64,000 nucleotides of DNA from an uncultured Pseudomonadota bacterium (GTDB lineage Bacteria > Myxococcota_A > UBA796 > GCA-2862545), in the NCBI GenBank assembly GCA_913061235.1, contig CAJXTB010000019.1:62001-126000 (forward strand), written 5' to 3'. The notes beneath the pieces are model-generated. The model ran no database searches. It had not been told where the DNA came from and saw only the letters and a program-made list of their open reading frames with translations. Of the stretch, positions 35,735-38,922 are shown one piece after another. Within the stretch, counting starts at the first letter, position 1; each line of letters begins with the position of its first letter. The translations under genes and the position numbers were made by a program.

Positions 35735-36697
35735 ATGCGTGTTCTATTTTGCGAAAGCTGCGGTGCTCCTCTCGATGCACCCTGGACTGAGATCGTGTTG
35801 GTGTGCCCACACTGCGGCGCACAAAATGCACCAGGTCGATTGATAGGCCAGGTCATCTCATCGACTCCCAACGATGGCCGCCCGAGACTCAACTTGAATG
35901 GCAGGACATACGTCTTAGAGGGCCAATTGGCCCAAGGAGACAGCGCAAACGTCTACAAAGCGAGATGGGCAATGCGACTAGGCGAGGCGGTCGTAATCAA
36001 GGTCCAACGAGCCGAGGCAGACACCGATTTGCTGCGACGGGAGTACGAGGCGCTAAAACGACTCACAGAAGCATCCGACCCAGCCACGACGCATTTTGCG
36101 ACGAGACTGCCCGAACCCATCGCCATCGGGACGCGGGCCATCGCGGGCCGCGACAGACTCGTCACCGCATACGCCTGGCGCAGCGGCTTCCAGTTGAGCC
36201 TAGAAACCATCCACGCACAGCACGCAACACAGGGTCTGTCAGGCCGAGTTTTGGTGTGGGTGTACAAGCGACTTCTCGAACAGCTGGTGTGGATGCACCG
36301 AAACGGTGTTGTTCACAATGCACTTACTCCCTCCCATATCTTGGTGCATCCGAAAAATCACGGCGCAATGATGGTGGGATTTACGCTCTCTGGGAAGGTC
36401 GGAGAAACGGTCCGGGGGCAGGCGCACGCATGGCGCGGAGCGTTCAAATCCGCACCGCCATCCGGTACGCCGAGCCGCGACATTGCCATGGCAGCGTGGT
36501 CGGTCCTGTGGGCAGGTGGAGCGGGCTTCGGTTCCAAGCAGACCACGCTGCCACCCACCTTCCGCGCAGCCCTGATTCGCGCAGCGAACGGTCACTATAG
36601 CGATGCACAGGCGCATCTTTCACAGATAAACACAGCCGCAAAGCACGACTATGGTCCAGGCAAGTACAGCCCCATAGACATTGACGGCTGGCACTAG
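35735..36697 (+). CDS. Zinc-ribbon pseudokinase
   Basis: 320 residues. Residues 5-30 form a zinc ribbon (CESCGAPL...CPHCGAQN). A protein-kinase-like domain follows: glycine loop LAQGDSANVYKARW, VIKVQRAE with the lysine present, but the catalytic loop is VHNALTPSHILV, lacking the HRD aspartate, and the DFG position reads VGF. It is therefore probably inactive and acts as a scaffold or nucleotide sensor. It is followed by the VWA gene (42 bases) and the PurA-like gene. Confidence 0.7.
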   Translation: MRVLFCESCGAPLDAPWTEIVLVCPHCGAQNAPGRLIGQVISSTPNDGRPRLNLNGRTYVLEGQLAQGDSANVYKARWAMRLGEAVVIKVQRAEADTDLLRREYEALKRLTEASDPATTHFATRLPEPIAIGTRAIAGRDRLVTAYAWRSGFQLSLETIHAQHATQGLSGRVLVWVYKRLLEQLVWMHRNGVVHNALTPSHILVHPKNHGAMMVGFTLSGKVGETVRGQAHAWRGAFKSAPPSGTPSRDIAMAAWSVLWAGGAGFGSKQTTLPPTFRAALIRAANGHYSDAQAHLSQINTAAKHDYGPGKYSPIDIDGWH

Positions 36698-36739
36698 AAC
36701 AACCGGCGTGCTTGCATGCAGGCCGAAATTGGAGGTTTC

Positions 36740-37708
36740 ATGGGCTACGGTCAGTACAGTCACAGCGCACACCAGGCGCTAACAAACGCGCGAAAAGGCC
36801 GCTCACAAGGTGAAGTATTCACCCAGCGGACGTGCCATCCATCCATGGACCCCATGAACTTGGGCAAGCGCGAATCCCGTGACAGCGAGACGAATCCAAA
36901 CAGCATCGCAATCATCTTCGCCCTAGATGTCAGTGGTTCTATGGGTGAAATTCCGGCTCGACTGGCTACGCACACCCTTCCGCAGTTCATGGGTGCCATG
37001 GAACAAGCCCAGGTCGGTGACCCGCAGGTCATGTTCATGGCGGTTGGCTACGCCGGCGGTGACCGGGCCCCTCTGCAGGTCGGCCAGTTCGAGTCGACCG
37101 CTGCTCTGATGGACCAGTGGCTGACGTCTATGTACCTGGAAGGCGGCGGTGGCGGCGGGGACGAGAGCTACGAGCTCGCCATGTACGTAGCGGCCCGACA
37201 CACGGCACTGGACTGCGTCGAGAAGCGCGGCAAGCGCGGCTACCTGTTCATCACTGGAGACGAGCCACCCAACACGGTCGTCTCGCGCAACCACATCCAA
37301 CGCACCCTCGGCACCCCACCCGCTGATGACATCCGAATTCAGGACATGATCGAGGAAGTAGGCCGTACTTACGAGGTCTTCTATCTCATTCCCGACCCCG
37401 AACGGGGTCAGCGGGTCGGCCGTCAGTGGCGAGACTTGTTGGGCGACCGGGTGGTGGTCATGGAGACCCCAGACGACACGTCCCACATCTGCGCGGGCCT
37501 GGTGTCGCTCCTAGAAGGAGGCGCCGCCAACTTAGGTGAGCTCATCAGTCGTCTACAAGCCGCTGGTGTCAGTGCAGAACGGGCGCAAGCGGTTGCTCGA
37601 GCACTGACGCCATTCGCTGCCAGCATCGCCCGTGATGGCGCCCCCCGTCCCACAATGACCAGCCCCGCACTGCCCAGCGGCAGCGGCAAGAGTGGGATTG
37701 ACCGCTGA
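36740..37708 (+). CDS. VWA domain protein
   Basis: 322 residues. ATG 36740 has GGAGG 5 bases upstream. The von Willebrand A domain begins with the MIDAS motif DVSGSMG near residue 62, so a divalent metal and a protein ligand can be bound. A Gly-rich insert (GGGGGGDESYE) follows; the last 70 residues are helical. No signal peptide, so cytoplasmic. It overlaps the PurA-like gene by four bases if that begins at CTG 37705. Confidence 0.85.
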   Translation: MGYGQYSHSAHQALTNARKGRSQGEVFTQRTCHPSMDPMNLGKRESRDSETNPNSIAIIFALDVSGSMGEIPARLATHTLPQFMGAMEQAQVGDPQVMFMAVGYAGGDRAPLQVGQFESTAALMDQWLTSMYLEGGGGGGDESYELAMYVAARHTALDCVEKRGKRGYLFITGDEPPNTVVSRNHIQRTLGTPPADDIRIQDMIEEVGRTYEVFYLIPDPERGQRVGRQWRDLLGDRVVVMETPDDTSHICAGLVSLLEGGAANLGELISRLQAAGVSAERAQAVARALTPFAASIARDGAPRPTMTSPALPSGSGKSGIDR

Positions 37709-38922
37709 GCGCGTTCATCGTCGTCGACCTTGGGTTCGGTGACGCTGGCAAAGGCACCATGGTCGACACCCTGTGTCGGCAAGAAGGAGCGGACCTCGTC
37801 GTCCGCTTCAATGGTGGGGCTCAAGCGGGCCACAACGTGGTCACACCAGACGGACGCCACCACACCTTCTCGCAGTTCGGTTCTGGGACGTTCGTACCGG
37901 GAGTGCGAACGCTGCTGGGGCCCGCCTTCGTGCTGCATCCACTGGCTCTCGTCGCCGAAGAAGCCCACCTCCAGAGCGTGGGGGTAGACGATGCCTTCGA
38001 CCGCCTGTGGGTCGACGAGCGGGCGTGCCTCATCACCCCGTTTCAACAGGCCGGTGGACGCCTGCGAGAGCTGATGCGAGGAAATGCCGCACATGGCACC
38101 TGTGGTGTGGGATTTGGCGAGTGCGTAGGAGACGCTCTGACCCACGACGACGTGCTGAGAGCCCGTGATTTGGCGAATCCTAGGCGTTTACGGCAGGCGC
38201 TAGTCGACCAACAACGTCGCAAGCGACATGAGCTGCGCCAGGCAGAATCGCTGACGACGGCTGCCGCGAGACAGGAGTGGGCGTGGCTCGTTGACCCGCA
38301 CGCCGTCGACGTCATCCTACAGCTGTGGCGGGACCTGTCGCTTCAGGTCTGCTCGGCCAACAACACCGCACGTCATATCGCAGGCGCACAGACCGTCGTA
38401 GCGGAGGGAGCACAGGGCATTCTTCTCGACGAGACCCACGGCTTTCAGCCCCACACCACCTGGTCCGACTGCACCAGCAACCATGCGCGACGCCTTCTGG
38501 GACGTCCCGCCACCGCCATTGGTGTGACCCGTACCTACAGCACACGGCATGGAAACGGTCCCCTCCCCTCTCACGACCCCGCGTGGGATGTCCTGCCGGA
38601 GCCCCACAACCATGACCGCGGGTGGCAGGGCGTCTTCCGTCGTGGACCGCTAGACCTGCCTCTGCTGCGCTACGCCCTGAAGCACAGTCCTGTGGATGTA
38701 TTGGCGGTGACCCATTGCGACGTCGTGCTTCCTGAAAAACTCGTTGTCGAACAGTATGAATCCACGACCAACATCGGCCCATCCAGCTCCCATTTGGACG
38801 GTGTTCACTGTGGCCTTCGACCGGTCGACGACCTCCCTACGGCCATCGCAACCGCCCTAAGTACGCCCCTTGGATGGGTAAGCCATGGCCCAACCGCAAC
38901 GGCCAAGCACAGGCTCCTGTAG
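37705..38922 (+). CDS. Adenylosuccinate synthetase-like enzyme with non-canonical start
   Basis: 405 residues. Divergent PurA paralogue: GFGDAGKG at residues 10-17 with the catalytic Asp13, and FNGGAQAGHNV with catalytic His43 at positions close to those of bacterial PurA; later QYESTTNIG resembles the family's C-terminus. The first ATG, 37759, would delete the P-loop and Asp13. Upstream in frame there is a TGA at 37699, and between it and the P-loop only CTG 37705 is a possible (rare) initiator; it forms a CTGA overlap with the VWA stop. Replacement of the family's GDEGKGK by GDAGKGT suggests a changed substrate. The true purA is expected elsewhere. Confidence 0.72.
   Translation: MSAFIVVDLGFGDAGKGTMVDTLCRQEGADLVVRFNGGAQAGHNVVTPDGRHHTFSQFGSGTFVPGVRTLLGPAFVLHPLALVAEEAHLQSVGVDDAFDRLWVDERACLITPFQQAGGRLRELMRGNAAHGTCGVGFGECVGDALTHDDVLRARDLANPRRLRQALVDQQRRKRHELRQAESLTTAAARQEWAWLVDPHAVDVILQLWRDLSLQVCSANNTARHIAGAQTVVAEGAQGILLDETHGFQPHTTWSDCTSNHARRLLGRPATAIGVTRTYSTRHGNGPLPSHDPAWDVLPEPHNHDRGWQGVFRRGPLDLPLLRYALKHSPVDVLAVTHCDVVLPEKLVVEQYESTTNIGPSSSHLDGVHCGLRPVDDLPTAIATALSTPLGWVSHGPTATAKHRLL

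Follow-up and report, generated by a model that had tools for sequence, protein, structure and literature searches.

We identified an intact PurA-like gene whose true start codon is probably the CTG at position 37705 of the 64,000-nucleotide stretch of DNA analyzed here (the window), where it would lie in a coupled overlap with the stop codon of an upstream gene for a VWA-domain protein. Natural CUG starts are very rare and are seldom so clean; here, a single codon is the candidate, the protein is intact, and the position is fixed by homologues. The junction could also be used to ask, in a natural setting, whether start-codon choice is less strict when ribosomes re-initiate after termination. 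The features of the locus are as follows.

35735..36697, + strand: zinc-ribbon and kinase-fold gene, first in a three-gene cassette, lacking HRD and DFG (a pseudokinase family-wide)
36716..37708, + strand: VWA-domain gene, 330 aa, MIDAS motif DVSGSM, second in the cassette (AF2, Foldseek)
37699..37701, + strand: in-frame TGA that closes the PurA-like frame to starts further upstream (sequence)
37705..37707, + strand: CTG, probable start codon of the PurA-like gene (homologous position of the GTG, ATG, and TTG starts in relatives)
37705..38922, + strand: PurA-like (PF00709) gene, 405 aa, divergent enzyme of the adenylosuccinate synthetase fold (Pfam, AF2, Foldseek, invariant columns)
37732..37755, + strand: P-loop region GFGDAGKG, lying wholly before the first ATG (includes catalytic Asp13 and Lys16, E. 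coli numbering)
37759..37761, + strand: first in-frame ATG, not the start (a start there would remove six family-invariant residues)

Start-codon options at the junction

The VWA open reading frame (ORF) (36716-37708) ends in GAC CGC TGA, with its stop codon at 37706-37708, and the PurA-like frame crosses it as TGA(37699-37701) CCG CTG(37705) AGC GCG TTC ATC GTC GTC GAC CTT, continuing as GGG(37732) TTC GGT GAC GCT GGC AAA GGC ACC ATG(37759). An earlier note on this DNA had placed the in-frame TGA, the CTG, the beginning of the P-loop (∼37732), and the first ATG at these same positions, all of which proved correct when checked against the sequence. It had also described a four-base overlap of the CTG with the VWA stop, which is seen directly as CTGA at 37705-37708. 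Between the TGA at 37699 and the P-loop, the PurA-like frame contains no ATG, GTG, or TTG, leaving CTG 37705 as the sole start candidate there; the TTG at 37730 is in a different frame. The frame scan and the homologue junctions described below thus agree with the note that no canonical start precedes the P-loop and that only this CTG is plausible.

A start at ATG 37759 is ruled out, as it would lose L9, G12, D13, G15, K16, and G17, all of them family invariant. The loss of Asp13 and Lys16 had been anticipated in the note; the whole first beta strand (residues 2 to 8 in the AF2 model) would be removed as well. Gene finders limited to ATG, GTG, and TTG would nonetheless start at 37759, losing the catalytic P-loop, or would miss the gene altogether. 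Other near-cognate codons do exist in the frame (ATC at 37717 and GTC at 37720 and 37723), and the overlap corresponds to a -1 frame, as a VWA-PurA fusion made by -1 frameshifting would demand. However, starts at these codons would yield an N terminus shorter than that of any relative, cutting into beta-1. The fusion was rejected, given that GAC CGC TGA offers no slippery site and that in many relatives the two genes stand in a different frame relation or have a gap between them. Overall, we consider initiation at another near-cognate codon or a frameshifted fusion very unlikely. The Shine-Dalgarno match at the CTG junction is ordinary (-4.8 kcal/mol versus a junction median of -5.8), which rules out an unusually strong one, and a special RNA structure is likewise ruled out by an ordinary local fold (z-score of 0.6).

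The same junction in relatives

A search of genome contigs recovered 80 loci encoding PurA-like relatives, and we compared 77 junctions in the first homologue set, plus additional junctions from genomes of the window's phylum and order. Where relatives have a four-base VWA/PurA-like overlap, the start codon is GTG (∼15 cases), ATG (6 cases), or TTG (2 to 3 cases), and all but one or two relatives carry a canonical codon at the homologous base. This comparison, which the earlier note had proposed, fixes the position of the start. The note had taken a homologous ATG at this position as evidence against its reading; homologues do start at this base, yet, being canonical starts at the same base, they confirm the start site and mark the CTG as derived. 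The window is the only one of the 77 junctions clearly without a plausible canonical start. Two other loci (L036 and L068) were also flagged by a strict window of 9 to 19 codons, but their canonical starts lie just outside it. Based on these alignments, the CTG appears to be an isolated noncanonical start where relatives, all but one or two, start normally.

The nearest relative, G005 (same family, 57% identity), has a GTGA overlap and reads CCG GTG AGG GCC TGG where the window reads CCG CTG AGC GCG TTC; its VWA gene ends in AGC CGG TGA, versus GAC CGC TGA in the window. Another near relative, G175, also has GTG at the junction. In G235, from the same order, we observed CTGA at the same VWA-PurA junction (L184, about position 1882, minus strand). 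An in-frame GTG 21 bases upstream of that CTG provides an alternative start, so this is not a clean second case, and we regard it as supporting but ambiguous. In the tree, the window clusters with the two GTG genomes (G005 and G175) and not with G235 (support, 88/73); the two CTGs therefore look independent.

Junctions elsewhere in the genome

We sampled 1.24 Mb (17%) of the genome, with 904 predicted genes, and found 134 in-frame NTGA junctions (71 ATGA, 29 GTGA, 9 TTGA, and 25 CTGA). All but one of the 25 CTGA junctions have another start within 15 codons, mostly as CTGATG, and the exception, the only one in the 1.24 Mb with no canonical start in that range, is the PurA-like junction. A genome-wide habit of CTG starts is thus unsupported; the window junction is unique among the 134 and represents an isolated case. 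In the scan for startless coding segments, the positive control was an ORF at C2:25118, duly recovered, that from its sequence we take to be prfB, in which the +1 frameshift would leave the ORF startless.

The earlier note left the choice between a CUG start with translational coupling and a base error. The former is the better supported, by the start position in homologues, the absence of decay in the protein, and the CTGA of G235, which is not a clean case. An error, with A, G, or T as the true base at 37705 and an ordinary NTGA overlap, is unlikely, even though a single wrong base would explain everything, nearly all relatives are canonical at this base, and the base is known from one sequence of the species. 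Against it, the substitution is silent in VWA, produces the Arg codon that this genome prefers, and has left no further trace. Moreover, the other 24 CTGA junctions all have sensible starts, indicating that errors at starts are not common in this assembly. We also count against an error that the frequency of CUG starts (0.024%) is not below usual assembly substitution error rates.

Two other ORFs in the window, both on the minus strand, were observed to have coding signal ahead of their first canonical start. In a 749-codon carotenoid-oxygenase-like ORF at about 59083, the first ATG, GTG, or TTG comes 19 codons after the stop, and an ATT or ATC start is possible. In a 217-codon ORF at about 11489, the coding signal extends over 51 codons before the first canonical start.

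A proposed coupled CUG start

We propose that the ancestral PurA-like gene started with GTG (or another NTG), overlapping the VWA stop by four bases, and that a single G-to-C change turned GTGA into CTGA, which would have been silent in VWA (Arg CGG to CGC) if, as G005 suggests, CGG was ancestral. CGC is the preferred Arg codon in the sampled genes (10,487 CGC versus 3,823 CGG), making the change unremarkable on the VWA side. Ribosomes ending VWA translation at UGA would start again on the spot at the overlapping CUG, using fMet-tRNA, with little need to search given that stop and start overlap. At a CUG start, the mismatch falls at the first codon position. The protein is predicted to begin (f)Met-Ser-Ala-Phe-Ile, i.e., (M)SAFIVVDLGFGDAGK, and would be produced in small amounts linked to the translation of VWA, a low output that may itself be important.

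Reconstructions of GUG-to-CUG start switches exist (PMC5622118). Among the arrangements of coupled genes, the four-base overlap is the most common (PMC10666635), and re-initiation still depends on fMet-tRNA and IF2 (PMC2268962). Like known termination-reinitiation pairs with ATGA or GTGA, the present pair combines an NTGA overlap on the same strand with a conserved neighbor and a moderate Shine-Dalgarno within the upstream gene. Unlike them, it starts with CTG and has no canonical alternative (ATG, GTG, or TTG) in range. CUG makes up 0.024% of bacterial starts (PMC11497404) and, by a value that this article quotes from Hecht 2017, has 0.86% of the efficiency of AUG in an E. coli reporter. Such inefficiency in E. 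coli, with no unusually strong Shine-Dalgarno here to compensate, counts against a CUG start, as does the lack of any other CTG-only four-base overlap in the sampled 17% of the genome. The GTC start of sigR in Streptomyces is a working throttle (PMC5472188) and similarly puts a rare codon in place of an expected canonical start, with low-output control being possible in the present case. It differs in that the rare codon of sigR sits on the upstream gene and that control by IF3 was demonstrated, whereas our case is built from sequence.

An intact PurA-fold protein with a divergent acceptor site

The PurA-like frame is open over 1.2 kb, with no internal stop, and its product matches PF00709 from residue 5 onward with 197 bits (gathering cutoff, 27; E value, 4.5e-58). 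It breaks none of the 59 family-invariant columns in a leave-one-out comparison, equaling the best family members. The AF2 model is confident (pLDDT, 92.6) and places its first strand at residues 2 to 8; Foldseek matches the model to PurA structures (E value, 1e-29). In addition to the fold, the protein shares with PurA the P-loop GDxGKG, Gln224, Asp333, the C-terminal GP, and the catalytic residues Asp13, Lys16, and His41, the last three of which are kept in the window and in 27 of 27 aligned family members.

The designation PurA-like in the earlier note holds for fold and family but not in the sense of an ordinary adenylosuccinate synthetase. Pfam alone would give the family that name; however, the protein scores 152.7 against the NCBIfam purA equivalog cutoff of 402 and 126.6 against the TIGR00184 cutoff of 395.6. 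Across the 27 aligned members, acceptor-site residues are changed (N38 to Q, T129 to C in 26, V273 to H, and S240 to W in 26), Arg143, which contacts IMP, is absent from the family, and K331 is mostly H. The aspartate loop GATTGRxR is replaced by WQGxFR, with TTGR corresponding to WQG, such that T300, T301, and R303 become W, Q, and a variable residue, respectively. In E. coli PurA, R303 contacts aspartate and the IMP O2' (PMC8342488).

Based on these alignments, we conclude that the enzyme has the fold and catalytic core of PurA, whereas its acceptor site is not that of PurA. The putative chemistry is likely a GTP-driven activation of the 6-oxo group of a purine, which an amine, not necessarily that of aspartate, would then attack. 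Phage PurZ, which functions in 2-aminoadenine synthesis, is likewise a PurA-fold paralogue with changed acceptor specificity, as we predict for the PurA-like protein. The latter is longer (PurA sized), misses the NCBIfam PurZ cutoff (61 versus 300 bits), and has no datZ- or mazZ-like neighbors in the sampled loci.

Canonical purA and purB

The canonical purA of the window genome (G000:C8, about 98900-100320, minus strand; L022 and L024) has become a pseudogene, interrupted by several in-frame stops and by a change of frame; its identity to the intact gene of a family relative is 44%. All other family genomes that are at least 90% complete have PF00709 matches with uninterrupted, full-length canonical genes. 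The PurA-like gene is consequently the only intact PF00709 gene detected in this 99% complete assembly. In the same assembly, no purB was found with TIGR00928 (63 of the 326 bits required) or PF10397, and PurH and apt are present. In G005 (89% complete), the one other genome of the family in which the cassette is complete, we found no purB over the cutoff, PurH, or canonical purA. Adenine salvage is probable in this organism. It is doubtful that the PurA-like protein replaces canonical PurA for AMP synthesis, considering its altered aspartate site and the failure to find purB.

The purA pseudogene indicates that purine genes do decay in this genome and, together with the atypical codon usage of the cassette (kinase-like gene at the 0th percentile, the most atypical of the genes measured, and PurA-like gene at the 1st), could point to a recent null allele, in which the base is real, the start has been lost, and the PurA-like gene is no longer expressed. 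Nevertheless, the frame and its invariant columns are intact and the VWA and pseudokinase genes are also open, so the null event would have to be very recent, and we consider it quite unlikely. Both a fresh null allele and a base error are less likely than CUG re-initiation.

A pseudokinase-VWA-PurA cassette

A VWA homologue lies directly upstream of the PurA-like gene in nearly all loci, preceded in most by a kinase-like homologue; the unit is therefore a three-gene cassette with the PurA-like gene third. HRD and DFG are missing from the kinase-like protein in nearly all family members, with HNA (window) or mostly HGA (elsewhere) in place of HRD and GFT or GWS in place of DFG. The VWA protein has no Pfam match; its fold is clear from the AF2 model (pLDDT, 91.1), which Foldseek matches to VWA/integrin I domains. 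A later ATG at 36740 (MGYGQYS) fits the family consensus start of the VWA gene better than 36716.

The cassette (35735-38922 in the window; loci L025-L104) is sporadic across many phyla, with many matches in Variovorax, and 31 of the phylum's 282 genomes contain its VWA gene. It is widespread and looks horizontally spread, and the codon usage of its kinase-like and PurA-like genes, atypical for this genome, suggests horizontal acquisition. Literature searches returned no description of the cassette, which is undescribed as far as could be searched. Neither the PurA-like nor the VWA protein has a PADLOC match, and we rejected membership in known anti-phage systems on this basis. The TerY-P triad (VWA, kinase, and PP2C) similarly places VWA beside a kinase-fold protein in a sporadic cassette. 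In the cassette described here, by contrast, the kinase motifs are lost, the VWA protein is not matched by PADLOC, and a PurA-like protein takes the place of PP2C, no PP2C phosphatase being detected among the window neighbors or the sampled neighbors scanned.

The product may be a PurA-fold ligase that depends on GTP, has a rewired acceptor site, and acts within this cassette. More speculatively, and with considerable doubt, it could represent a new PurA subfamily, regularly found beside a pseudokinase and VWA, whose product is not adenylosuccinate but some other conjugate of a purine nucleotide, probably a signal or a modified nucleotide. In the organism studied here, which has apparently lost real purA and purB, the output of the enzyme would be throttled by the CUG start coupled to VWA translation. 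At some loci, the cassette adjoins genes for NUDIX and an NrtR-type winged helix (L057:4926-5600 and L093:5136-5873) or for NAD synthase (L040:3576-6002), neighbors that raise a possible link to NAD or ADP-ribose sensing.
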